Of a stretch of DNA of 64,000 nucleotides, positions 6,579 to 60,610 are shown one piece after another. Origin of the DNA: Phalacrocorax aristotelis (lineage: Eukaryota > Chordata > Aves > Suliformes > Phalacrocoracidae); NCBI RefSeq assembly GCF_949628215.1, contig NC_134276.1, positions 102,799,799-102,863,798 of the forward strand, given 5' to 3'. The translations under genes and the position numbers were made by a program. The notes below the pieces were generated by a model. It made no database searches, was not told the origin of the DNA, and saw only the letters and a program-made list of their open reading frames with translations. Numbering within the stretch: the first letter of the stretch is position 1; every line of letters begins with the position of its first letter.

Positions 6579-6737
6579 CTAGCGGTGTGAGGCACTCCTA
6601 AACATGGTGGTATTAACCATGCTTTCCTTTGGTACAAGTCCCATCGCTTGGAGAGCCGCAGTTGCTGCTGTGGCTTTAGCATGCTTCTTATTAAGGCTGG
6701 CAAAAGTAGGCCTGTATTCATTTCCATTGACTCTCAC
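6579..6737 (-). CDS. SON: SON coding exon 12 (last): end of dsRNA-binding fold
   Basis: This exon encodes 52 residues and TAG (6581-6579) in phase 0. It starts VRVNGNEY, continues NKKHAKATAATAALQAMG and ends FRSASHR. The KKHAKATAA block is the second helix of the dsRNA-binding motif, whose basic residues usually contact RNA phosphates. The C-terminal FRSAS tail matches human SON. The acceptor on the minus strand is AACAG|GTG at 6738/6737. Confidence 0.93.
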   Translation of the reverse strand: MRVNGNEYRPTFASLNKKHAKATAATAALQAMGLVPKESMVNTTMFRSASHR

Positions 6738-9700
6738 CTGTTTGGGAAAGACGGGAGGAAAAAAGAAAGCGTTAGAAAGTGCCCCTTTGCTTCTGTTTCA
6801 AGGCAGTGCTACAGAGCTGCTGTAAGCACATTCTCTACCTAATTCCTCTCTAGGGGTAGAGAAAACCCGTATTTGGGCCATAAGCACAATCATTTCCAAA
6901 TTGTGACTGCTGATACAAGGCACTATGTGAAAAAGAAAGCCGACATCATAAGGTAACTGAAGGACAAAAATAACTCAATCTTGTTCGCTACCCTTTACAA
7001 CAGTAAGGCTTAACACCACACCTGCAAGTAAAGAGCAAGAATACAATACCCTATATATAGATTAATCATTTTAGTAAGGAGAATAGCATGTTTCTTGATG
7101 TATTTACAGGAAACAGAACACAGAAATTCTAGCATCAAGACACTGCTTGGCAGTCCTCAGCCACCCGAGGTGGCTTATTTGTTTGTATACATATATAAAC
7201 ATGGATTTACATCACCTTTAATAGAGAAACCAACAGCAAAATAAACCTCAAACACACCTTAAAGATAAAATGTTTGCGATGATCAGGCCCACTATCATCC
7301 ACCAACACAAACTCAGGTGGTGACCATCTTCTTTTGTTACAGATCTCCATCAATGCAGAGACTGGATGTTTACCTTAAAGATAAAACGGATAAAATGGAT
7401 TTCAATGTTGCCACCAAAGCAATCATTTTAAATGAGGGTATGAGGGTTTGTTTTTTTTTTTCTTTGACAAGTAATAATCTCACCTGAAAGATCCTTCATC
7501 ACAACATAATGTCCAGATCTCTTTTGTGCCTTCTCTCCCACAGCAACAAGCCCTAAGCAAAACACAAGGAAGTTTACATTACAATTCCCACCTGATTTAT
7601 TTATTCTCATCTGTAAAACAGTAACAACATGTATCAGTAGGGAAGAAACCTGGAGACACCATACAACTGCCTTCTCTGAAGCTTTTCAAACCTCCCTTTC
7701 GTCCAGCATTTTTTCCCTCGATACTACACAGAATATTCTTCTCAACTGCTTTAGTAAGACTCTTAACAAGTCAGGCAGTAGAAAACTTTCAGCAGTCTTA
7801 TGCAAGTCGGGAAACACCTAGTTTTCCGTGCCTTCTTTGGAGAAACACTGAACAAGAGATATATTTAAAAACATTCTCTCATTCAGTATCTGTTTTGTGC
7901 AACCCAAAACTACCGTAGCAGTTTGCCTCTAACGTACTAAGCATTTGAAGTATTTCCACTGAACAGTAAAAAGTGTACCTAGCATATCCTTTTATGATAC
8001 GAATAAAACGGTGGTGTTCTTACACCATGTGCTCTCTTTATCTAACAGCATGTGCAAGCTCACAGCCCAATTACCGTGACTTCAATCACATCTGAATATA
8101 AAGCAGCAAAGCATGCAGCTGGGCCCCAAGTCAATACAAATAGCACAAGTTCCAAAGGAAGTCACTGTGAAACACCGAAGCTGAACATTTTTGGCTTTAA
8201 AATCTTATAAGAATAAGAAATAAAGTGTAGCGATTGCCAAAAACATATCAAATGCCAGTAACCATGCCATGCTCATGAAGTGACTCAGGCTTCTTTCCAT
8301 CCATTCAGCCATAACCTTAACTACACGTAAACAAAATACCTGACTGGTTTTTCAGAATTTCTTGGACTTCAAGCCTTCAATATTACTTTGTTTCTTACCT
8401 CATTTTGTTTCTCTTCCTGGCTTTGATGAATAAAGACAGGGAAATAATGCAACTGTTTCCAGTTTCTTCGTGTTCCTTCAGCTTTCTGTGGTTGGCATTT
8501 TGGTTTGTTTTGCTTTAAAAGAAAATCCTTCCCTTCTTACCAGATTTTCATCCTAATATTCATGCAGCTCCTAAGCAGGGACTTTTCAAGTGGCATGAAA
8601 CCCTCATGGACAACAATCATTGAAACCAAGTTTCTGTGGTTTGTTTTTTGGTTTGGGTTTTTTTTGTGGGTTGGTTTTTTTTTTTCCTTCTTACACAGCA
8701 TTATATCCAAAACAATCAAAGATTTCCACTGAAGGGAAAAAACACTTTTGTCATTCTCCACATTCTCCCTCACTCTAAGTCACTGGCACACATCTTGTCC
8801 CTGGTACCTCAAGAGAGAATTTCAAACAAGCTGCAACAGATGCTGAGAAGCTCTGCTGATGGACCAAGCTTCTTTGAATACGAACAACCAATAGTTTACT
8901 GGCTGACGGCAAAGCTCAATAAGACTCTGGTTTCAGTGCTGTCTGTGACAGAACTACAGATCTCACTCAGTGTCTGGAAAAAACAGGGTCTAAGGGAAAG
9001 CTATGGCAAAGGCAGACAACATTTTGGTTCACATCTTACTGCAGCCTACTGAGTAACTCCTTAGCAAACTCCTTTTTGCTGTATCTAGAAATAGTATTTT
9101 ATTTGGGGACAAGTCCTAGAAACGGTTTAAGAACCCTACCAAACAAAAACAGGTTGGTTACTTAATAACAGACAGGCTCCTTTTAAAAATTTTGCACTTT
9201 TCTTTAAACCTCACACAGAACTTTTAAAACAATTGACTGTTTATACATTTAAGCAAAGAACACTGATTTTTGAGGATGCTTTTCAGCTGTTTGTCATAGA
9301 TAAATAGCCACTGTTCAGTTGCTTCTTTGTAATGCATGAAACCTGCTGCTTCTTTGTAATGTCAGTTGTCTCCCCATATTATAGACTCGGTTGACTCAAC
9401 ACAGTATTCTTTATCAACACAGAACACCTTTAGATTTTCTGTGGAAATTATCAGATAAGACTGCATATATGATAATAATGAAATATTTTTAAACTATGAA
9501 ATTAAAACACAGCCTGGACATCACTAAGTTTATCACTATTTTCAGATTCATCTGTCACATGCCAGAAGAGGCACCCTTTAACTCCATTTAACATTTTTAA
9601 TTGTTGTTGAAGACCCAAGTGTTCTGCAGCAGAAGGAACAAACTATCTGTTACAGAATGCCCAGCACAGCTAGAATCTGACCCTGTCTCAGGCCTTACGG

Positions 9701-12700
9701 CTTGATCCTTGAAACTTCAGTATCAAGTTCTGCAGGCATTAAGGAAATTTCTATCAGAAACTACATGAGGATCCTGGGGCACGCTTCTAGAACTGGAAAC
9801 TTGAGCTGTGACAAAGTTGTGTATCACCAAAATGCTTTCAATATTCAAAACATTCACCGGTTGTGCAGCAATGCTGCCTCTTTCCCATGACGTGACAAGA
9901 AGCAAGCAACATAATGAAGAGAGCTAACTCTTCCCTCTCGCCACAAAAATCCATCACTGTGTTACGCAGGCTGCTTGAGAAAATAATAATGAAATGGTCT
10001 GTTTTCAGTTTCTTCCCTCTGACTGACATTAACCAAGCAAAATTGAAGGAACCCTTACCAGCAGTGAGAACTTCAGAAAACAACATCTACAAAGATCACA
10101 GTAACTAAGCAGAAGTAACAAAATATTTTTCAAAGATTTTCTTGGCCATCACTTTGTCACCAGCCGTATTTTTTTCCTTTCTTTAAACAGAAAGGTTGCG
10201 CAGAAGAAAAACAGCTGCAAAGCAATTTTGGTCATTGTTCATATAAAATGAGTATGTCTGTATTATTGTATTCTTTACTTTGAGACTGTTGCACTTCTCT
10301 GTAAAACTCTATTATGCTGCTAGAAGGTCTTTAGAATTTAGAAAGCAAAGGGTATGTTTCATAACGTAGGCTCGCATTCTCATTTTATGCCTCTATGCAC
10401 TTAATATTTAAATGTTCAAAGTATATTTTCACTGATAGCCTGGTCACCTGAGCAGTACTGAACTATCTCTGTATTGAGAACTAGCGACTGACAGCTAAAG
10501 ATTCCCCCAACAGCATCTCTGCAAATAAACTTCACAACGTTTGCATTTGTGTGCTGTGTTTTCTTCTGAACTCAATTATGAGCATGGACAAAAGCTCATA
10601 CAAACCCATAATTCAAAGTATTTTCATGCTTTAATATTAGATGTGAACTATTTAATATATTAAAGGTTTCTAGTTTTTTAAAAAAATCTTTAGAACAACG
10701 GTAAGGATTTGTTTTACCCGCAGTCGGTATTCAATTGGTTATTTTGGTAACATGCATTATAGAACAATTAAATCATAAATCTTGACTGCTGAAATTCTGC
10801 ATCTTGTATTTTAAATGGTTAGAATTTATATTTCAGGAGGAAAAAGATTCCCTCTGAAAACGGAACTCTTGCTTAATAGGCTGGCGAGATGGCCAATCAC
10901 ATGAGCCACGCTGCCAGCTTAAGCAGCAGCACACTGTCTGTAAATAAAAGGATAGTTCTTTCGAATCAAGTGAGGCGAGTGCAACAGTTCTCCACCTGTG
11001 GCCACGGACTACGTAAAGAAGAGGAGGAAAGACTGCTCAAGCAATCTTTGGAAACAGCAGGGGAACATCACTGTAGTTAAGCACAGGTGCCTGCAACAGG
11101 ATCAAGCTAGGAGATGGAAGAGCAGGGAGATCAGGTGGACAAAAAAGGAAACTGAATCCATTTTGAAGACCTAAAACCATCAGTATGACAGCCTATTTAT
11201 GTCAGGACTGCAGCTGAAAGGCAGCAGTTTCTCAGCTCTGTAGCTCTCACCTCTGACCTTCACCCCAGTTTAAAACTGATCCAACTATTCATTCTTCTAT
11301 CCTGCCCCATTCCTGCTTCAGCCACTTCCTCTAGACCAACCACAATAGCTTTTCCACAATTCGCTCCCCTGTACGTGCCTTCTCTGTACATCCAACTGAA
11401 GCAGCACAGCCCTAACTTGAGAACCACTGAGAAGCACTTTTTAAACTGGAAGGTGACGGTTAGGGAAAGTTAAAGAATGTCTGGAAGAGGTCACAGGCGT
11501 AAGGACAAAGCCTATATACCTAATCCAGGGCTTGAAAAAACTAGTACAGAATCACCTACATCATCCTGTTCATTTTTAGAGTGAAGCTGTACCCAGACAA
11601 AGCAAACTACTTCAAAGTTATTTTGCTTATCTCCAAAACAGACATGAGAAGTTCATACTGCCATAAGTCATTTAAGGAAGGGCTTACCTTTTCGATCTGT
11701 CTTAAAATCGACCATAATAGGCTCAACGCTGCCTTCTTTGTTTTTTCCAAGCCCTTCTCCTTCTCTCCAGCCCATTTTTCTCATCAGCTGAGCTCCCATT
11801 CCTCCAGTTACAGGGGCTGCTCTTAAGAACTGATCCTATCCAGAAAAAGAAAAGTAAAACAAGTCCTGAAGTTAGCACTTGGATTTAAAAAAATAAGCGG
11901 GAGCTTCCAAAACAATGTTTCTAACAACCTTTCACAGACTCAATTCAAAAAAATACACCTTAGCTTTAGATACGTTAACATCTTGTATAAACCAGAATTC
12001 ACGCAGACACACGAGACACAAATCAATATTTTCAAAAAAGAACAACTTAAGAAAATTCTAATGCAATCCAAAAGTGGCAAGTGACCCATTCCAGACATAT
12101 GTACTTAATAAAATGATAACCGTCCATTTTTAAACACGCTACTTTGGTTCCAATGCATCTCTTCTCATCTTGTGAAAGGAGGCAGTGTTAACTGTTTAAC
12201 TGGCAACATGTGTGCCAAGTGTACCTAGTTATCGAACAAAATACAAGCACATTTAGTAATGACATTCACATAGTGTTTAGGCATATTTTAGATAAAAAAA
12301 AAAGTTTCCCCATTTTATTATAATACAGCAGTTGCACATTCAAGTTCTACTCTGAAAATCCACATGAAACATACAGGTTTTGCTTTTCTTTTTTTAAAGG
12401 AAAACAGGCGCTTAGCCACACAGTTTAGCAGCAGTAGTCTTCACATTCTTTCAAATCATCATTAACATAAGAGTTGTTAAATGGTGAAAGCTTATAAACA
12501 GAAATTTTAAAAATCTGTTTTGATGTAAAGAACTTTAAAAACTCCTTAAATGTTTACGTACCTAGGCCTCGATGGCCGCAGTGTTGTGAATAGTAGGGCT
12601 GGCATTGACCGTGGCAAGAAGGCAGCTACAAGGATTTGACCCTGAAACAAGTTTCCATATAGAGGGGTGAAAGTTCACAGGTTATTCTGTGAACTATCAT

Positions 12701-27700: not shown

Positions 27701-30700
27701 TCCAATAGCCCACACACCACTAAGAGATTACTTTTGAGCAAATTGAGGTTGCTTGATTTCAGATGTTATTTCTATGAACAGTTATTTCAGAACTGTCACA
27801 CTGATGATGTAATTAATAAACAAAAAAGCACACTTTCTTTCCCCATTCCAAATTTTCTCTAGTTTCTGGGGGAAAAAGCATAGGGGGAAAATTAGCAAAT
27901 GGAACAAGGTGACATTACTACCATAAAACAACAAGTAGCAATTTTTTCTCCACATCAGAACAATAACATCCCATTTATAGACTTGAACTGCAACAGGATA
28001 GAACTGCAACAATAATTCTCTAAAAATATCTTAGAGTGCATATGAAAATATACAGAACCACGTGAAGTGCGCACTGGATTTTTAACCCAGGGATAGCATT
28101 TAACCATGAGAAATTCACTATCAAAAATAAGAGCTTAAATAACAACACCAGAACCATAAAGTAGAAGTGAAAGCTTTGGTTTTATTAACAGGACTGCAAG
28201 GAGAACTATCAATTTGTACACAATTAGAGCAGAATAAAAAAAAAATAAAATAAAAAAAAAATTTGGATTTCATGCATTTCCAGGGAATTAAAAAGCCTGT
28301 TTTCATGACTTAAAAAAAAACCATGTAGAGAATAAGAGCTCAACCCACAAGCCAGCTTACACACCAACCAAGCACACAGAACAACAGCTTGCCTCAAAGT
28401 CACAAAAAAACAACTTGGTTTTTTTCAGGTTTGATACTGTTCTCACTTACCTCAGTGAGCTCCTTTAGTGTATCTCTTGATGACTTCTGATTGGCTTTGT
28501 CGTCTTTCTTTTGAGATAACAAAGGCATCAGGCTTGGTGGTAAGGGAACACCAGACTTAGCACACATGGCGGCTGCATTAGCTTTTGCTATTTCAAGTAG
28601 CTGGGCCTTGTCTAAAAAAAATTGTAATTTTTTTTTAAGAAAAAGTATTATTTTCAGATTCTTGTTTTAACAATAAATAATAATTTCTGGCAGACTAAAC
28701 AAAGTACAAAGAAAAAGCACTAGATTTACCCACACTGTGCGCTTTTATATTCTATGAAACTAACTAAAATTGTACTTAGTTGCTCCAGACTTTTTAAAAT
28801 TTGGTCTACCGAACAGACAAGTGAAATTGCAAATTTAACACAAAGCACCAAATCCAAATTACAGCACTCAAAACCCTCCAAATCCCCGAAGTTCTGATGC
28901 CTATTTTACTTCACTGATCACTCTAGTTTTGGAAATACTGGGTCATTTTACTCAGCATAAATTCCCAAGTCTACTTCCTAGCTACCTCTGAAAAGCAGTC
29001 AAAGGTTTTGAGGAAGTCCCCTCAAGTCCTCCAGTACACAGCCTGAAAGCTACTTGCAACGAACCAACAGAATAAGCACTGAATTAAATGTGTACTTGCA
29101 TAAAATACAATTACACACAGAACTGTTAATAAAACAGTATTTTGCTTTATTAAGGAAAAAAGCACATGTGGCCCTATGACAGAAACAGGGAATGAAAGTA
29201 TGCCTTATTTGATCTGCCAGCTTGCAAAGAAATGAGTTACCACTATCTCTGCAAGCATACAGCTTTACAAAAGATCCTGAAGGACAACATTCTTTTACTT
29301 CTTAAGCAACAGAAGTATATAGATACAGACTTGCTGCATAATCAAAGCATGAAGGCAGATTCAAGGACGCTCATTAATTCTCGTGTTCTTTACAAAAATA
29401 CTTCTCTGGCAGAGGGGCTTCCATGGTAACTTTGAGACTAAAAGGATCAGATCCTGAGATCCACAAAAGGAAGCATCCTCACACACTGTACAAGAGCTCG
29501 TCTTTCAAAATTAAAACCTGCTTTCTCCTTATGCAACTTTCTGCTAAGGAAACTACGAGGCCTTTCTTCTCCAGTCACAGAGAAAAGATGCCATTCATTT
29601 AGGATTTTTTTCTTTTCTTTTTCAAACAGCTGGGTCTGGAAATGTTTTCAGAAACAAGCCTCCCTTTCCCATTAAGTTCTTAACACAGGAAAAGGGCAAG
29701 ACAGAGTAACGGAAACAGATAAACAAGCATTACAGCTGACAACAGAGCTAAGACCTCTCCAACTGGCACTTACTTTTAAATGTTCTTTCAATACTCAGTT
29801 TCTTGTCAGGAAAACTAGAAATTCCTAAGTTTCTTACAGAGTACTTGGCCTTTCCTAACTATTACAATGAACAGTGTTCCTCAAGACTGCAACATACTAC
29901 TGTCACATAAAAGCTCTATAATCAAGACATAACCTGCTCTAAATATGCTTTCATCCACATGGCAAGCACTGATTCAGGTCTGACATAAAAGTTCCTACTG
30001 GAAGTCACTGCCTAAAGGTAGTACACAATACGACTTCCAAAAAATTCCTTACGAATGCTACAGAGATATGTTAAAAATAAAGTATATGTAAATGAACACA
30101 GTTATCACCCAACCATAGAACTACTGAAAATAAAATTATCACTTACCCAAGTCTGTAAGACGTTTAGGTGACCTGCTTGAAAATCGTTCTGACGACCTCG
30201 ACCGACGACGATCAGGTGATCTGCTGTATCTTCTTCTTCCTGAAGATCTTGATCGCCGTAGTCGAATTGGTGATCTACTAGAGCTCCGTCTTCTTCCTCT
30301 TGACCTTGATCGCCTTTGACGAATAGGTGTTCGACTCCTGCTCCGTAATCTGAGTGATATTCTACGATCTCTTGAATCTGATCTTCTTCTTCTTCTGTCA
30401 GTAGATCTTGACCTATTTCTCTGAGATCTCTTACGCCTGTCTCTTGATAAAGAACGCCGCCTTCTTGATGCTGACCTTGACCTACTCCTCCTTCTGTGCC
30501 TTGAACGCGACAATGAGCTAGATCGAGAGCGACGATTAGATTTTGATCTTGATGCTCTTCTGCGTGTTACTGATCTGGAGCGATTCCGTCTGGAGCGAGA
30601 TTCTGTATCATATCTCTGGGATCTGTGCTGAGAAGACCTGGAGCGTCTGCTTCTAGACCTCCGTGAAGATTCTTTGTCTGCTGTTTTTTCAACAGATTTG

Positions 30701-33700
30701 GATCGACTCCTTTGGTGAGCTGTAGACCTGGAGCGCCTACGCCTAGACCTCCGTGAAGACTCTTTGTCTGCTGCTTTTTCAACTGATGTCGATCGACTCC
30801 TTTGGCGAGCAGTGGACCTGGAGCGTCTACGTCTAGACCTCCGTGAAGATTCTTTGTCTGCTGTTTTTTCAACAGATGTGGATCTACTCTTCTGGCGAGC
30901 AGCAGACCTGGAACGTCTACGTCTAGATCTCCGTGAAGACTCTTTATCTGCCACTTTTTCAACAGATGTGGATCGACTCTTTTGGCGAGTAGGAGATTTT
31001 GAGTGTCTGCTTATTGATCTTCCTGGAGACTCTTTGTCAGATGTTTTATCAACAGATTTGGACCTAGATTTTTCACGTTCAGAAGACTCAGAACGCCTAC
31101 TGTCAGGTATAAAGGAAGAGTCCTGTTCCTCCAGCCTCTCATGAGGCATGGAATCCTGTTTATCTTCATCTGCCAAAGAGGGCTCCGCATCCTCGCCCTC
31201 CTCACCAGTGGTAGACCTTGACTCACGGTCATCTGACGATGTGGAATCTCTTCGTTCAGCTGTCAAGGAGGGCTCCGCATCATCTACTTCTTCACCAGTA
31301 GTAGACCTTGATTCACGCCCATCAGGGGATGTGGAACGTCTGTGTTCAGTTGTCAAAGAGGGTTCCATATCCTCTGCTTCTTCACCAGTGGTAGACCTTG
31401 ACTCATGGTCATCCGATGATGTGGAATCTCTTCGTTCAGCTGTCAAGGAGGGTTCTATATCCTCCACATCTTCACCAGTGGTAGACCTCGACTCATGTTC
31501 ATCTGAGGATGTGGAGTGTCTACGTTCAGTTGTCAACGAGAGCTCCTGGTCCTCTGCTTCTTCACCAGTGGTCGACCTTGACTCACGTCCATCAGGAGAC
31601 ATAGAACGTCTATGTTCAGCTGTCAAAGGCGGCTCCAAATCTTCTATTTCTTCGCCAGTTGTAGACCTTGAATCGTGATCATCGGAGGATGTGGAATGCC
31701 TACGTTCAGCTGTCAAAGAGGGCTCCCTATCTTCTATATCTTCACCAGTGGTAGACCTTGACTCACGCTCATCAGAGGATGTGGAATCTCTTCGTTCAGC
31801 TCTTAAGGAGGGCTCTGCATCCTCTGCTTCTTCACCAGTGGTAGACCTTGACTCATGCTCATCAGAAGACACGGAGCACCTACGTTCCGTTGTCAAAGGC
31901 TGCTCCAGATACTCTCCTTCTTCACCAATGCTAGATCTTGACTCGTGCTCATCAGGGGACGTGGAGCGCCTATGTTCAGATGTCAAAGAAGGCTCCAGAT
32001 CATCCATTTCTTCGTCTATGGTAGATTTCTGGTCATGGCCCTCAGGGGACAGAGATCGCCTACGTTCAGAAGTCAAAGAGGACTCTAGACCCTCTTCCTC
32101 CATGGGGGATTTCAGTTCATGACCTTCCTGATATGAGGATACAGAATGTCTACGTTCAGATATCAAAGAGGGCTCTAGGTCCCCTGTTTCTTCACCAGGG
32201 CCAGATTTCACACTGTAGCCATCAGGAGACATGGAGCACCTGCTTTCAGGCATTAGAGAAGGCATTGCATCATCCGCTTTTTCAACAGCGACGGATTTCG
32301 TTTCGCTATCATCAGGGGACATGGAGGCTCTATCATTTAGCGTCAAAGGTTCAAGATCACCTACTTTTCCAATAGTGGGGAATCTCAACTTCTGGCTATC
32401 AGGGGATGCATCAAGTTCATTTTCAGGTGTTGGAGAAAGCTCCTGCACATCTGCTTTTTGAACAGGGGTGAACCTTACCTCCTGGCTCTCAAAAGACAAA
32501 ATATGGTCATTTTCAGATGTCAAAGAAGAATCCATATCCTCTGTTTTCTCAGCATGGGTCAATCTTGATTCATACTCTTCAGGGAACAGAGCATGTTCAT
32601 TTTCAGATGTTAGGGAAGGTTCCTTAGCCTCTACTTTTTCAGCAGGGCTAGACTGCAGCTCCTGACCTTCAGGGGACAGGGCACATTCACCTTCAGACAT
32701 CAAAGACAACTCCTGAACCTCTGCTTTTCCAACAGCAGTAGACTGCAACTCCTGGCTATCAGTGGACACTGAACTTTCACTTTCAGATGTTTCAGAAGGC
32801 TCCTCCATTTCTTCTTTTTCAACAGGACTGGATCTCAAGTCATGGCCTTCAGGGGATACATCATACTCGTTTTCAGACAGCAAAGAACACTCCTGCACCT
32901 CTGTTTTTTCAGTAAGAGAAGAGAGCAACTCCTGTCCTTTGGGGGATGCAGCATATTCACTGTCTGATATTAGTGATGGCTCCTGCACCACTGTGTTTTC
33001 AGCAAGGGTAGACTGTAATCCTTGGCCTTCAGGGAAGATGGTATATTCACTGTCAGAGGGCAGAGAAGGCTCTTGCACTTCTTTTTCAGCAGGACTGGCT
33101 GTCATCTCCTGGCCCTCAGGAGATACAGCATATTCATTTTCAGACAGCAGAGAACACTCCTGCACCTGTGTTTTTTCAGCAAGGGAAGATGGCAATTCGT
33201 GATCTTCAGAAGACACAACATGTTCATTGTCAGGTGCTACAGAAGCCTCCTGCATCTCTACCTTTTCAGGAGAGCTAGATCTTAGCTCCTGGCCCTCCCA
33301 AGATACAGTATATTCATTTTCAGATGTCAGAGCAGGTTCTTGCACTTCTACCTTTGCAACAAGGGGTGACCGCAACTCCTGGCTCTCAATGGACACTGAA
33401 CATCTTTCTTCAGACACCCGATAAAGTTCCCGCATCTCTCTTTTATCAGCAGGGGTTGATGTAAACTCCGGACCGTCAAGCCTGATTGTATATTCATTTT
33501 CACACATTTCGGAAGGCTCCTCTACCTCAGCTTTTTCAAAAGGGATGGATGTCAACTCATGATCATCAGAGGGAACAGAACATCTGCTTTCCAGTATCAG
33601 AGGTGCCTCCTGCACCTGTATTTCTTCATCATAGGCAGGTCTCAACCTGTGGCCATCGGGACATGCAATGCATTTCAGTTCAGATGACTTGTGCACCTCT

Positions 33701-36700
33701 GCTTTTTCAGCAGGGATAGCTCTCAATTCATGACTATCAGGCAACAGGAGAAGCCCACCTTCAGATGTCAGAGAAGTCACTGGAGCCTGCAGTTTTTCAG
33801 TTGGTGTGCTTACTGATTCACAAACATCAGCAGACTCCAAGAACCCACTTTCCAGTGGGAGAGGAGGCTTCTGTATCTCCATTTTTTCAGCTGCAGTGGA
33901 TGTCATTTCATAGCCTTCAGGGAAGACAGAACACCTAAGCTCAGATGCCAATGACAGTTCTGCACCTTCTGTTTTCTCAAAGTAATTGTGTTTTGATTTA
34001 TGGCCATCATGGCACACAGGAATTCCACTTTTAGACACCAAGAAAGACCCTGTACCCTCTATCTTTCCAGCAGGCAAGTATCTCGATTCATGCATTTCAG
34101 AAGATTCAGAGCAGTCAATTTCAAGTACATGTGAAAGTGTCGGACCATCTAAATCTTTGTCCACAGATGATCTGGACTCATGAACTTCAGAAGACTTGCA
34201 GCTTTGTCCTAAAGTTGTAAGTACAACTCCCCGCGCTTTTTCAAAAGATGACGCTGAAGTGAAGTCATCAGAGATCTCAACAGGACCACACTCAGATGGC
34301 AGGGAAACATCTGGAGCTTTTTTTTCAACAGACAAAGGTCTTTGTTCATTTCCATCAGGTGACTTGAAGGACCCACCTGCAGACATCAACAGAAGCTCCT
34401 CTCTTTGTGCAGCAAAGCTGGGTCCTGATTCATGTCCATCAGGAGACTTGAAGCGTCCACTATTAGAAGCCACAGAAGGCTCCTGTATCTGTCCTTCTTC
34501 AACAGGCAAGGACGCTGACTCACAGACATCAGGGAACACAGAGCATGTAACTTCAGGTGCTAGGAATGATTTTTGAGCTTCTACTGTTTCAAAAGATAGT
34601 GACCTTGACTCAGGGCTGTCAGCCGACATAGAAGATTCACTCTCAGGTACCTGCAAAAAGTCCGGATGCTCGTTTTTTTCAACAGGGATATGTCTCAATT
34701 CACGGCTATCAGACAAGTCAGAAAGCACACTTTCAGACGTCCGAGAAGACCCCTGAACCTCTGTTTTTCCAGAGGACGAGGAGATTGTCCTGTAATCATC
34801 AGAAGATACAGAACATCCACTTTCAAGTGTCCGGAGAGGCTCTGGACCCTCTATTTCTTTGAGAGAGGCAGATCTTGACTCATCTTCATGGGATGCGGAG
34901 AGCTGAAATTCTGTTACTGAAGAAGTTTCTGGATCGCCTCTTTTTTCAACAGATGAGGAACTTGATTTGGGTGTGGAGTATGTAAGCTCAGGTAGTGACG
35001 CAGACTCCAGAGCCACTGCTTTTTCAGCTGATCCATTTTCAGATGTCATAGAAAGCTCTGAAACCTGTGTTTTTTCCACAGGAATGGATGTCAATTCCTG
35101 GTCATCTGGGGTTTTGGAGCTGTCAAATTCAGATATCACAGAAGGCTGCAGACCCACTGTTTTTTCAACAGATGAGCTTTCCTCAAGACTATCGGAAGTT
35201 TTGGAAAATCCACTTTCAGATGCTGGTGGCAGCTCTGGGCCATTTACTCTTTCGACAGACAAAGCTACTGACATAGGACCATTAGAAGATTTTGAGGAGC
35301 TGTCTTCACTTGGAAAAGAAGGTTCAGGAACATCTACTTTTTCAAGAGATTTGGTTGACTCCTGAAGTTCAGAAGACTCCACGTGCTTGCTACTGCACTT
35401 CACCGAGGATAACTTACTCTCTCTTTTTTCTACAGATTTGGACCTTGACTTAACACTATCAGAGGACTTGGAACGCTTCCGTTTGGATTTTTTTGAAGAT
35501 TCCTTGCGCTTTTTTTCAACAGACCTAGACCTAGACTTGTAACGTTCAGAAGATTTTGAGCGGCGACGCTTAGATTTTCTTGAGGACTCCTTCTTTTTTT
35601 CCACTGATTTGGATCTAGACTTGTAACGGTCAGAGGACTTTGAGCGCTGGCGTTTAGACTTCCGTGATGATTGCTTTCGATCTCTTTTTTCTACTGATCT
35701 GGATCTAGACTTGTAACGGTCAGAGGACTTCGAGCGTTGACGTTTAGACCTCCGCAGAGATGCCTTTCGACCTCTCTTCTCAACAGATCTTGACCTAGAT
35801 TTCGAACGATCAGAGGAACCAGACCCTCTGTGTCTGAATCTCCATGAGTATTCTTTGCCACCTCTCTTTTCTGAAGACCTAGATCTAGATTTAGAACGGT
35901 CAGAGGACCTGGAACGTCTGCGGCGGGACCTCCAAGAGGACAACCTCTTTTCCACTGACCGTGATTTAGACCTGTAGCGGTCAGATGACCTCGAACGTCT
36001 GCGTCCAGACCTTCGGGAGGACAGCCTCTTTTCCACTGACCTCGACTTAGACCTGTAGCGGTCAGAAGACCTGGAACGTCTGCGCCCGGACCTTCGAGAG
36101 GACAGTCGCTTTTCCACTGACCTGGACTTAGACCTATAGCGGTCAGAAGACCTAGAACGTCTGCGCCCGGACCTTCGAGAGGACAGTCGCTTTTCCACTG
36201 ACCTGGACTTAGACCTATAGCGGTCTGAAGACCTGGAACGTCTGCGCCCGGACCTTCGAGAGGACAGTCGCTTTTCCGCTGACCTAGACTTAGACCTGTA
36301 GCGGTCAGAAGACCTCGAACGCCTACGTCTGGACCTTCGGGAGGACAGTCGCTTTTCCACTGATCTGGATTTAGACCTGTAGTGGTCAGAAGACCTTGAA
36401 CGTCTGCGTCTGGACCTCCCAGAGGACAATCTGCTCCCTCTCTTTTCTGCTGATCTGGATTTAGACCTGTAACGGTCGGATGACCTGGAACGTCTGCGCC
36501 TGGACCTCCGGGAAGACACTCTTCTCTCTCTCTTCTCCACAGATCGGGATCTAGATTTGGAATGCTTTTTTCTGGAATCTGAATAGTTTCTGCTCCTAGA
36601 ACGTGCTCTTTTAGAGGTCAAACGCCTGGAAGTAGAACGTGACCTTGACTTTTTCTTCCTCTTCCTAGACCGGGACTGAGACTTGGAGCGACTCCTTTTT

Positions 36701-39700
36701 TGTTTCTTTGCATCATGTTTTTTATCACTGCTTCTATGGCTACTTTTTTCAATAACTTTTTCAAGCCTCATCAGTGTCTCCCTCATTCGTGCCGCCACAT
36801 CAGGTTGCACATCAGATGTTTCTGAATCTCTTTTCTCTGACTCCTGTTCTGGAGTTGCTTCTTTGGCAGCCTCAGTCTGTGGAATGACTTCTGACTGGCC
36901 TGCCTCTGCCACAAGTACTGGAACGGCTTCTGTAACAGTCTCAGGTACTGGAGCTGCTTCCGAATCTTTTGTCTCAGCCTCCAACCCTGCAGCTGCTTCT
37001 GCATCCTTCAGGTCTACAACAGTCTCAGGAAGAGAAGCTGCTTCCAAATCTTTTGTTTCTGCCACATGAGCTTGAGCTGCTTCCAACTGTTCTGTGTCTC
37101 TGACTATCTCAGATTCAGGAGCCCCTGCTGACTCTTTTTCATCTGCTGCATGTGAAGGACTAAAAACTGTTCCTGCTATTAAAGGCTCAGATGCTTGAGT
37201 TTGCTGCACATCTTTCTTCTCAACCACTATCTCGCATTCCTGAGCTTGACCTGGAACTCCCAGGTCATCTATTTGTTGACCCAGCACCTCTTCTGCATAT
37301 TGTGCTTCTGCTGCCACTTCATGTTCCAGTGTTGTTTCTGCATCTCTCATCTCCCCTGGCTTTGGAACTGCCTCAGACGACTTCATTTCAGCAGTACTCA
37401 ATATTTCTGGAGCCTCTTCCATACTCTTCCACTCTGCAGCAGGTTTTCCTTCTAGAACTGCTTGCAGATGTTCTTGCTTTTCAGAGTGCAAAGATTCTGA
37501 AACAGCTTCTGAAGCATCCTCTAAAACATTAATCGCCCCCACAGCTCCAGACTTCTGGCCAGTTTCCAAACCTTGGATATCCATATCAGGCTCTTCGACT
37601 GTTTCAGAACCTTTCACCCCTACTGTTGCAGACTCTTCCATACTTTCCAACAACCTCACTTCTCTAGCTGGCTCCAAATATTTTGCTTCCATTGATTTCT
37701 CTGTTTCTGAAGCTTCTTCCAAATCTTTTACATTGGTAAACAAGGGCTCATTTTTTTTGGTGCTTGTCCTCCTCGTTGCAATTATATATTCTACAGTAGG
37801 TCCCTGAGTTCTCACATCTGTCGAAATGTAAGATTCCAAAGTTCCTCTCAAGTTCCTCACTTCTGTCACTATTTCTGATGCCACAGTTTTTTCTTCCACT
37901 CTGGGCAAAGACTCTAATACTGCTTCTGAATGACCTACTATTTGTTCCTGGACAGATTTTGAACTTGTTTCTAAGGTTTGCACAGGTTCTAGTATTGCTT
38001 CTTTGCTCCTTGCCTTTGCTTTGTTTGGATCTTCTGGAGCAACTTCAGAATGCCTAATTTCTCTAGCCACCTCAGATGCCAATGTCCTTCCCAAGCCTTG
38101 CATTAGCATCTTCGTTTCAGATCCCGCAACCATTTCCAAATTTTTCATCTCTGTTAAGGGTGAAGTTTTTGATCTCGCTTCCAAATCTTTTACCTCTGCA
38201 ATGGCCTCAACTTCCGACAAGCTGGATAAACCTCTCACTTCTACAGTGGCAGAACTGGTAGCTAGTTCAGAATCCTTTATCTCCCCTGCCACCTCAGTTT
38301 GTGAGGTTCTTGTATGCGTCATGACCTCAGACTGTGAAATGATGGAACTCTTTGTTCTGCTTGCACCAAGAGGTTCTGCATGTTTTGGTTCTCTTTCTGC
38401 TGTGGTTTTCAAATGCATTAGTTCTGCTAGTGCCTCAGACTCTCTAGATGGTTCCATGCTTACACATGCAACCACAGATTCAGGAGTCCTTTCTGACCTT
38501 TCTTCTATGGCAAGACATCCTGGACTTGCTTCCAAGACTTTGCTACCCATTTTGGCTTCAGAACACACATTTTCTCCTAAGCCGCTTACCACTGCAAGGG
38601 TTCTAGGCTGCAAGACTGCTTCCAAAGCTTGTACCTTTGCCATACCTACAGACACTGGATCTCCTAAATCTCTCATGCCTTTCACATGCAGGTGGGATGA
38701 AGATGTCTTCATCTCTGTTTTGGCTCTGTCAAGGTCTGCTTCTGAATCTTTCCTTCCTGTCTCTGCTACAGGTCCTATAGTTGTTTCCAAACTTTTCACT
38801 GGTGTCACAGATCCGACTTTCATAGCTAGGAGACTGGCATCTGAGCCTGCTTCTACTCCTGCCATACTAGCTAGATTTATTTCTGAACCTTTTGACACCG
38901 CTGCTGAATCTATTGTTGCTGCTAAACCTCTGGCCACAGTCTCAGAATGCACTGTTTCTTCTGAAGCTTTCACGCCTTCCATTTGCAAAGACAGTGAAGC
39001 TGTTTGCAAAGTTTCTGCTTCCACCACAGCTGTTGGTCTTAGGGTTCCTCCTGGACTTCCCACGTCTCCTTTCTGCAAAGACAGGAGAGTTGCTTCCAAA
39101 CCTCTCACATTTGATTCACTCAGCATTTCTGGCTGTCTCAGTAATGAAGTACCTTCTGAATCTTTTGCCTCTGTTACAGCTACAGGCTTGAGAGTAGATT
39201 CTGAAATTTTTGAAGCATTAGTATTTTCCAGTTGCAGAGTAGCTTGACTTGTTTCTAGACCTTTTATTCCTATTAGTGCTGCAACTTCTGTGGTTGCTTG
39301 TGGACCTTTAAAACCCTGCACCATCTGGATTTCTGGGGTTGTTCGGGGAACGAAGGTCTGCACAACTGCTACAGGTTCTGAAGTTGCTTTTAAAACTTTT
39401 GCCTCTGCAACCACATTCACATCTGTCAATTCTGCTGGAAGCGCAGATCCCTGGGTTCTATCCACACTTCTTGTTTCTGTCAAGACTTCACGTTGTAGGA
39501 ACACTCCTGGTGCATTCAGCACTGTTGCAGGATCAGTGGTACCCTCCACACCTTTGAGTATTTCAACTTGCAGAGATTCCTGAGCTGCTTTGACATCTTT
39601 TGCTGTAACGCCCACAGGTTCCATGACTGTTTCAAAAGTTTTGGGCTTTACTACAGCAACTGGCTGTAGAGCTTCTTCCAAAGTTTTCACATTTTCTGTA

Positions 39701-42700
39701 CGCGCGGAGCTTCTAGCTGGTTCAGTATCCTTCGCTTTTGTAACAGCTCCTGGTCCCAGAGGTATTTTGGCACTTTGTATTTCCACCTGGGTCACAGCGG
39801 GGCTGCACGGTGTCACACTCAAATTATCAGATATAATTGAGGGCTTCAGGGCTGGCTCCAAAGTTCTGCTCACGCCCCCCAGTTCCAAAGATCTTTCCAC
39901 ATTTTTCACATTTCCCATACTGAGAGATTTTTCAGTTGCTTCTGGAATTTTCACTCCTTCCATGGCCACAGACATGTGAGCTACCTTCACAGTACTCAGA
40001 TCTGCCTGATTTGCAGATTCAGGAATTCTTGTCACATCACTTCCCCAAGACACAGATGCTGAAGTTGCTTCTACCTCTTTTTCTCCACCCTGTGCCACAG
40101 ATTGTAGAGATGCTTCTGAATATTTCAACACCTCCATGGTCTTAGACTCAAGCACTGTATCTAAAGCTGCTACTTCCTCAGTGCCTTTAGATTTCAGAAA
40201 AACCTCGGAACTTTTTAGTGCTTCTGTAACCTCTGAAGCTAGAGTTGCTGCTGAATCTTTCTGAATCTCAGATTTACTGGCAACCCCAGATGGGATGCTA
40301 GAGGAAGTATCATTTCCAGTATCAGCAAAAACACCCTTTTCACCTGCATTAATAGCTATAGGATAAATATTTTCATGAGACTGTTTAATTTGTTCTTCTC
40401 TAGTGCAAATTTGAGTTATACTAGCATTTTCTTGGATATCACACTGGCTGCCTTCTAAATTAAATGGAGGATTTGTTGCACACAGAGTCCCTTTGTCACT
40501 TCCAAGATTTTCTGTAGATTGCTGAGAATCAGTTCTTGACTGAGAAACAAGTCCTAAAGCTTGTCTATCAAGCTCCTCACTTGCCTTTAAGCACAGTTCT
40601 TCTGGCTGCACATGGACAGCCAGATTTGCATCTCCAAATCCTCCCTGCTGTACACTGGAGGTTGATTTCTCTGGCATCAAGTGAGAAGCAGGCTGCAAAC
40701 CTGCGTGTTCTCCATGACGTGTACTCAACTTGGACTCCTTTGGCTGCTTTTTATGCTTTTTCTCTTTCTTTCTTTTCTTCTTCTTTTTCTTCTTCTTCTT
40801 GCTTTTGTGTTTCTTGTTCTTTTTTGATTTTTTCCTAGGAATTTCATCTTCAGCCGTAGAGCTTCTTTTTGTAGACTGAGTACTACTTTTCACAGTATTT
40901 TTGTCTACATCTAGAAAAAATGATATTTTCCTTGTAAATGTTATTAAAAGTACATTTTAAAAATTCTTTTAGACTAGTGACCAAGTATATGGACAGAGAT
41001 ACAAAAAATTTAAACTTGAAACGCGTTCCTTCTTCACTGAAGTACCACACACAAGCCCCCTTTCAGCCCTCTTACCCTTCCTCTCAGGAATTACATTAAG
41101 TAAAAATAACTAATTCTTCTTCCAAAAAGTTAACCAAATCTTCTCAGTCAGCAACCCAGTTCCAATGGGAACATGACTCTTTCCAATAAGCAGTTGGATA
41201 TACTTCCACCTATCTAACTGGGCAGTGCACTCTTCCAGGAGGCTGGAGATGTGCTTTTAACACCAAGCTGCACATGGAAGTGAAACAACTCCCATTTTCC
41301 AGGCAAATTATCTAAGAAGTGGTATGCTTATCGTGTAGAATGGGGCCAGCCCATTATCCTCTACTATGCTTTAACTTGTGAGCAAGCCCAATATCGCTGG
41401 TGTGTTAGAAATTATCTAAGCATATTTACCAATTAAGTTCCTGATGGCAAAGTTCTGCAAACAAATTTGGGGAAACAGCACCTACTTCCCCAGTCCCAAA
41501 CAAGCTTTAAGGCACTGCAAGCAACCAGCTGTTCAGAGGGGACTGCAGTTGCCAGAAGCAGCTGCAAATATGCGAGTATCCAGTAGGGCTTTTCCTTCAA
41601 ATAGGAAAGTAACCAATAAATTCAGGTGACTGCAGGGACAAGCAATCACTGAGAGGGAAAGATGAAGATGAGGTTTCAATCACCTTCTTTTAATTCTGTA
41701 TCTCACTTCCCTCCACATTTAACCTGTGTTAGGTTCTTACCCTTCACTGGATCTAATGCCATGTTTTCATGAGAAAGGCACTTCTATTAAAGGCAATATG
41801 TTACCATTCTCTTAAATATGAGCTATATATTCAAGTCTGCTTGCATGCTATCTTCAATGATTGTATTTATACTGGCCAATGCAGCAATATGGATTCTCCA
41901 GCTATCATCTGGCTGTTATTACAAAGCATACTCTTTCAAGCAAACAACGAAAAATCATGCAAAAACTGTTGGTAATTACAATACTAGTAACTTAAGATTC
42001 CATAAAAAGCATCTCAGGTAGTTCTAAACACACACGTTTTTACAGGATAAACAGCTTAATAAAAAATGTTTCCACTAACACTGCTGTGAATGCAATGAAA
42101 GAGGACAACGAAGCTGCATCAAATGACCTTTCCTACACAGCATTTTCAGATAATCTCTGTTGTCCAACAGCAACATTAACTCCTTTCCAGATATGAACAC
42201 TGGGAACATTACCATAGGTTAGGTTTATTTACTTGCAGGTTAATACGTTTCACTTATTTATTACTATGTTAGCATGTCTCATTCTTCCATGACAGCATAA
42301 CAAAAATACAAAAAGATGCCAGCTTGAAGTGCTGCTTGTACAGTGTAAGTGAAAGACTGTTGAAAATGCTCATGGTAAACAATCCACTGTGCATAAAAGA
42401 AAGAAAAAGCAATTCTAAAACCTTGCAAACAGTATCTTTGAAATAAACAATTCTCTACACTGCATCTTAAAAAAAAAATCACTCGAACTATATTTACCAA
42501 GCACATACCAGTCACCTAATGTGTCAACTCAAAAAAAAAATTAGAAATGCAATAATTAGAGCCTTCATCTCACTAACTCTCCCAATTCAGAAATTTTACA
42601 GAAAGGACTAGTCCCATGGGAAGGGAAACTCATATGCAACTTTTTTGGCATAATAAATCCCATAATTTATTGAAGTTATGAGATTGCTACATAAAAATTT

Positions 42701-56311: not shown

Positions 56312-60610
<4,299 letters not shown>

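Follow-up and report, generated by a model that had tools for sequence, protein, structure and literature searches.

SON, a core protein of speckles, has been tied to speckle formation and to the growth of disordered regions, and its length ranges among animals from 610 to 5561 residues, the evolutionary forces behind this variation still being described as to be discovered (PMC7671692). In mammalian SON, repetitive motifs are reported to make up one third of the protein and to maintain speckle organisation (PMC4394511). The present analysis concerns SON of Phalacrocorax aristotelis, encoded on the minus strand of a 64,000-nucleotide window of contig NC_134276.1 (all positions are those of this window), and in particular a tandem array of 90-bp, 30-residue units in its giant exon. 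The reported length variation of SON goes with disordered-region growth; here, approximately 1977 residues of this size-variable protein can be parsed into repeats of a single module, an anatomy that was not seen in the consulted sections of PMC7671692. This suggests that repetition of a 30-residue module approximately 68 times was one way in which SON grew. Human and other mammalian SON represents the same gene, with an RS domain, a G-patch and a dsRNA-binding motif. The antibody peptide MDSQMLATSS of human SON (PMC4394511) shows a different repeat, and the human protein is set apart here by that peptide rather than by its whole sequence. SON was already known to carry repeats, and the 30-residue charge-segmented array is a variant of that habit. 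We know of no copy of the 30-mer in human SON. Among the matches listed in a search of open-licence literature, judged by title or by the start of the abstract, no paper on SON repeats in birds was found.

Charge blocks in disordered tandem repeats are known from Ki-67, where phosphorylation alters them and they favour condensation, with more repeats leading to more droplets (PMC9106583). The SON array, for which disorder is predicted, likewise combines tandem repeats with charge blocks. In mitotic Ki-67, positive and negative diblocks lie within each repeat, with blocks of approximately 30-40 residues (PMC9106583), whereas in SON the main segregation separates runs that differ in whole-unit charge and are 5 to 49 units (150 to 1430 residues) long. 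Arg-rich mixed-charge domains (PMC9324279) provide another likeness, as low-complexity sequence of speckle proteins that is charged and rich in Arg. These domains intermix their charges, whereas the SON array is strongly basic at its ends before phosphorylation and acidic in its middle. A near-balanced, intermixed Arg-rich composition was not found, net charge per residue being +0.348 in the N-terminal basic (N-basic) block and -0.138 in units U16-U64, phosphates not counted.

The giant exon of SON carries a large, charge-segmented coding repeat (Table 1). Cutting of the exon translation into 30-residue columns by a cyclic profile yielded 68 units (U02-U69) with a combined size of 5931 bases and 1977 residues, more than half of the 3605 codons of the exon. 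Excluded from the counts were an 8-residue lead (U01), two rows of the RS tail that fitted poorly (U70-U71), two residues inserted in U52 and an insert in U69. Indels caused 23 of the 68 units to differ from 30 residues. A sequence-only reading of the window had described acidic and basic 90-bp units and a basic 81-bp unit in SON as apparent forms of one repeat. All three were present as claimed: the acidic array corresponds approximately to U51-U63, the basic 90-bp array to U65-U69 and the 81-bp array to U04-U09. Moreover, the 81-bp unit is indeed the 30-mer with three residues missing, and its Lys-rich neighbours measure 28-30 residues. Approximately 3.1 kb between these arrays (U16-U50), overlooked in that reading, proved to be the same repeat, with a lag-30 identity of 0.268 versus 0.092 expected (35420-32620).

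Net charge per unit was +4 to +12 (mean +9.9) in the N-basic block (U02-U15), -8 to +1 in all 49 units of U16-U64 (sum -198, mean -4.0) and +6 to +9 (mean +8.2) in the C-terminal basic (C-basic) block (U65-U69). Charge formed three runs over the 68 units; when unit order was permuted 10000 times, the number of runs averaged 28.4 and never fell below 14. Instead of the alternating polyanion and polycation blocks that had been envisaged, two basic blocks flank one acidic block, and charge does not alternate from unit to unit. Serine at columns 3, 15, 18, 23 and 25 was retained in 41-54 of the 68 units. Column 0 is occupied by Lys or Arg at the array ends and mostly by Glu between them; column 8 is mostly Lys, but mostly Glu in the acidic block. 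In the middle, E7, K8, E13, E19, D/E27 and several serine columns still represent the commonest residues.

A common origin of the acidic and basic units, which we regard as nearly certain from comparison of their sequences, drew support from tests of register, DNA and codon families and from a comparison of clean blocks. In the register test, block profiles of 67 of the 68 units (U64 excluded) were compared at all 30 cyclic offsets, and scores were set against the maximum over offsets in 5000 column-permuted controls. With all residues included, the shared register was the best offset in six of six block pairs (p = 0.0002 for each pair, the smallest value that the test can give), and it was still best in all six when K, R, D and E were masked (p 0.0002-0.0012), although the columns derive from one alignment made jointly for all units, whose gap placement, rather than the offset scan, could favour agreement. 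At the DNA level, in-register identity between blocks was 0.44-0.60, versus permuted maxima averaging 0.31-0.37 under a codon-permutation null (p = 0.0003 in each of the six pairs), and third codon positions alone gave p values of 0.0003-0.036. Columns with shared Ser or Arg agreed in codon family more often than did permuted columns, which held for every pair when both residues were pooled (p 0.0005-0.030); taken separately, Ser was below 0.05 in two of the six pairs and Arg in one. The proposal that acidic and basic units can be laid in one register was thereby borne out against column-permuted controls in both protein and DNA.

Searches of the genome to which the window belongs (1,278,995,914 bases) scored 65 of 352 candidates for a query of 31225-33288 and 111 of 2948 for an N-basic query; among these scored candidates, no other locus carrying the 30-residue repeat was found. 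The translated search with 31225-33288 returned six matches, none of them outside the giant exon. One lay at 35287-36126 in the N-basic end (E 8.8e-4); another, 30625-31239 (1.1e-11), spans the C-basic block together with acidic U63-U64. The five matches of the N-basic query were the query itself, the acidic array at 31201-32295 (E 6.3e-13), 30628-31257 (5.3e-13; C-basic plus U63-U64 and part of U62) and two weak matches on contig 13 (E 1.2e-4, to a 42-bp satellite lacking a 30-residue period, and 0.0045). That satellite (L014, approximately 415797-416687 of contig 13) is open in several frames and mimics charged low-complexity protein. Relatives of 31225-32304 were not found in the viral contigs searched. 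Because E-values of the genome searches lean on composition, and because the cross-block matches 30625-31239 and 30628-31257 include U63-U64, clean blocks were compared anew by composition-adjusted BLAST with 300 shuffles and with U15, U63 and U64 excluded. Here, the acidic/C-basic and acidic/N-basic pairs held up against shuffled controls, their real scores exceeding 300 of 300 shuffles; the same result was obtained for N-basic/C-basic (E 0.001) and middle/acidic (E 4.9e-34).

Ratios of nonsynonymous to synonymous differences (pN/pS) within blocks were 0.29 (0.20-0.39) for N-basic, 0.36 (0.20-0.60) for C-basic, 0.45 (0.33-0.59) for the acidic block and 0.80 (0.67-0.97) for the middle, with synonymous differences (pS) of 0.625, 0.407, 0.517 and 0.544, respectively. 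Omission of the nearly identical units U05-U08 left the N-basic ratio at 0.31. In column bootstraps, the middle exceeded C-basic in 1997 of 2000 and both N-basic and acidic in 2000 of 2000; its Jukes-Cantor (JC) dN/dS was 0.68 (0.48-0.95). These values indicated that protein-level selection, and not recent copying alone, maintains unit similarity in the N-basic block, and selection that was block-specific, tight at the ends and loose in the middle, appears very probable from these codon comparisons. In DNA, units of either basic array or of the acidic array were 0.64-0.82 identical to others of their own array, depending on lag, versus 0.44-0.60 between blocks; divergence into charge types therefore seems older than the most recent round of amplification by blocks. 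The middle was flat, its units being 0.53-0.57 identical at lags 1-8, and showed no such excess over identity between blocks. In sets of 200 unit trees (199 resamplings plus the original), recovery of single blocks was weak (N-basic 67, C-basic 139, acidic core 83). The scenario of amplification followed by charge divergence consequently stood with respect to common descent, but its order seems reversed in the acidic and basic arrays, where identity within exceeds identity between and tree support is weak. That the middle is simply the oldest part was not supported as a sole reading, since its pS was not above that of the N-basic block. The acidic block may have been amplified in three-unit steps: Tandem Repeats Finder (TRF) scored a 270-bp period at 1052 versus 858 for 90 bp, yet unit identity at lag 3 (0.74) was not above that at lag 1 (0.74).

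A half acidic, half basic unit had been placed at the junction between the acidic and C-basic blocks. U64, part of this supposed hybrid, scored at most +1.2 bits against any block with either half and showed a DNA identity of 0.48-0.50 to all four blocks; it fitted neither the acidic nor the basic profile, so no hybrid could be demonstrated. The position of the U63/U64 boundary is uncertain. In U65, the first half is C-basic (+30.2 bits) and the second half weakly basic, and the charge switch sits near the U64/U65 boundary. By profile, the mixed unit is U15 at the opposite junction, whose first half scored +29.2 bits with N-basic and whose second half was negative with all four blocks.

The explanation that we favour overall, by a narrow preference, is an array built from one module, charge-segmented and constrained separately by block, that would act as a cation-anion-cation chain in speckles. 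In this explanation, a single 90-bp module would have been multiplied into the array, with unequal exchange or slippage as the probable mechanism; serine would have been mostly retained at several of its positions, while charge columns turned to Lys and Arg at both ends and to Glu and Asp in the middle. Afterwards, the blocks would have come under separate constraint, tight at the ends and loose in the middle. Kinases of the SRPK/CLK type act on RS domains in general, from which we infer that they would toggle the RS ends between a strongly cationic state, binding the acidic middle and RNA, and an approximately neutral or anionic one. Spacing and solubility would depend on the long acidic middle, which would also supply the counter-charge. 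By arithmetic on candidate sites, phosphate on all 79 Arg-adjacent serines would take the N-basic block from +138 to -20, and the C-basic block plus RS tail would go from +103 to -29; the putative attraction of the ends to the middle would therefore hold mainly in the hypophosphorylated state. An AlphaFold model of four units (pLDDT 51, pTM 0.12), made with a shallow alignment of 7 stretches of approximately four units and for which DSSP returned nothing, was consistent with disorder and lends it weak support. A phosphorylation-switchable, disordered cation-anion-cation spacer-scaffold in speckles is put forward as a tentative functional model. A further step, in which SON became a self-complementary triblock through amplification and block-wise charge reversal of one serine-bearing module, with kinases of the RS ends deciding on end-middle binding, is rather unlikely; if true, array length and block balance would offer means of adjusting speckle cohesion. 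Unit number, block balance and serine columns offer countable variables for how speckle condensation was tuned in evolution.

Several observations weigh against parts of this explanation. Clean-block E-values were weak for acidic/C-basic (0.034) and acidic/N-basic (0.043), so that the acidic-basic link rests more on the register, DNA and codon tests than on plain similarity, and shuffles equalled the real score in 3 of 300 cases for middle/N-basic and 1 of 300 for middle/C-basic. With serine masked in addition to the charged residues, the register remained best in three of six pairs (middle/acidic p = 0.0002, middle/C-basic 0.027, N-basic/C-basic 0.051) and was lost by identity in the other three; the best offset for acidic/C-basic then moved to 22, showing that this match rests on serine and charged columns. 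These results, and an N-basic/acidic identical-codon rate of 0.356 (0.263-0.469) that is indistinguishable from the background of 0.328, agree with unrelated low-complexity arrays made alike by composition and a shared period. Such a coincidence is nevertheless highly improbable, given that every block pair beat column-permuted controls in protein and DNA, that codon families were concordant with Ser and Arg pooled, and that the period continues through 68 units with the middle linking both ends. Basic charge might also have arisen twice, one origin per end, from an acidic or mixed ancestor, instead of being one ancestral state interrupted by the acidic middle. C-basic shared identical codons at a higher rate with the middle, 0.519, than the 0.418 for N-basic, the intervals overlapping, and a basic clade joining both ends was present in 1 of 200 third-position trees; however, one basic group was recovered in 167 of 200 all-site and 158 of 200 first-plus-second-position trees, and RS-type sequence flanks the array on both sides, leaving two origins a somewhat doubtful proposition.

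Neutral expansion would leave the RS ends to matter as an ordinary RS domain and would make the acidic middle a drifted coding minisatellite, useful at most as length. Its pN/pS and JC dN/dS are in line with this, as are the 9 of 20 units in U16-U35 that are not 30 residues long, and the weak constraint suggests that much of the middle may be filler. Nevertheless, the confinement of all of U16-U64 to a narrow charge range, the persistence of the charged and serine columns named above as commonest residues and the lower pN/pS of U51-U63 count against purely neutral growth, which we regard as possible but not probable. With respect to speckles, charge segregation moved Arg mixed-charge domains out of speckles and to the nucleolus, and such domains with a net negative charge dispersed (PMC9324279), results that speak against block attraction promoting speckle residence. 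Alternatively, the repeat might be kept for its RNA, with speckles capturing a multivalent, purine-rich mRNA as part of a feedback loop: GA-rich mRNAs, many of them encoding Arg mixed-charge domains, are kept in speckles when such proteins rise (PMC12629991). With a sense-strand purine content of only 0.52-0.57 in the four blocks, and with basic-block constraint acting on amino acids, an RNA role of this kind seems highly improbable.

Table 1. Features of the SON gene and its 30-residue array in the window.
Feature	Position	Strand	Remarks
SON giant exon	30139..40956	-	Open for 3605 codons, stop to stop; identity from downstream G-patch and dsrm exons and GART neighbour
SON G-patch exon	11686..11835	-	Pfam G-patch, E 2.3e-17
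Whole array, U02-U69	30622..36552	-	68 units; 90-bp/30-residue period; 45 of 68 exactly 30 residues
N-basic RS block, U02-U15	35362..36552	-	14 units; net +138 in 397 residues
81-bp sub-array, U04-U09	35893..36378	-	Three residues lost; U05-U08 nearly identical
Degenerate acidic middle, U16-U50	32305..35361	-	35 units; weakly constrained
Acidic block, U51-U63	31162..32304	-	13 units; TRF adds a 270-bp period at 31165-32013
Junction unit U64	31072..31161	-	Net -4; placed in no block; part of the hybrid proposed in the sequence-only reading
C-basic RS block, U65-U69	30622..31071	-	5 units; net +41 in 150 residues
RS tail of giant exon, beyond array	30139..30621	-	With 57-bp repeat at 30232-30346

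The minus-strand gene with the giant exon is identified as SON by its domain content and surroundings. In addition to the G-patch exon, a dsRNA-binding exon at 6579-6797 matched Pfam dsrm with 26.4 bits (cut-off 23) over profile positions 30-65 of 66. A GARS_N match at 56312-56632 on the plus strand pointed to GART as neighbour, which we take to be the opposite-strand neighbour of SON. The giant exon ends in RS-rich sequence, and the RS domain and giant exon of the SON orthologue were thus present. A Pfam scan of the giant exon gave no family at E up to 1.

Other repeats occur in the same exon. Its N-terminal part (36577-40686, minus strand) contains a separate, degenerate 15-residue repeat, with a lag-15 identity of 0.140 versus a shuffled maximum of 0.107, and a 57-bp repeat that is present twice within the RS tail (30232-30346, minus strand) represents a third repeat type. 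Neither the 15-residue repeat nor the RS tail matched a two-unit profile of the array above shuffled controls. Downstream of the giant exon, an open stretch at 28400-28666 (minus strand) with a SON exon matched Pfam RSRP with 24 bits, below the cut-off of 27; a short motif common to SON and RSRP1 is possible on the strength of this sub-cut-off match.

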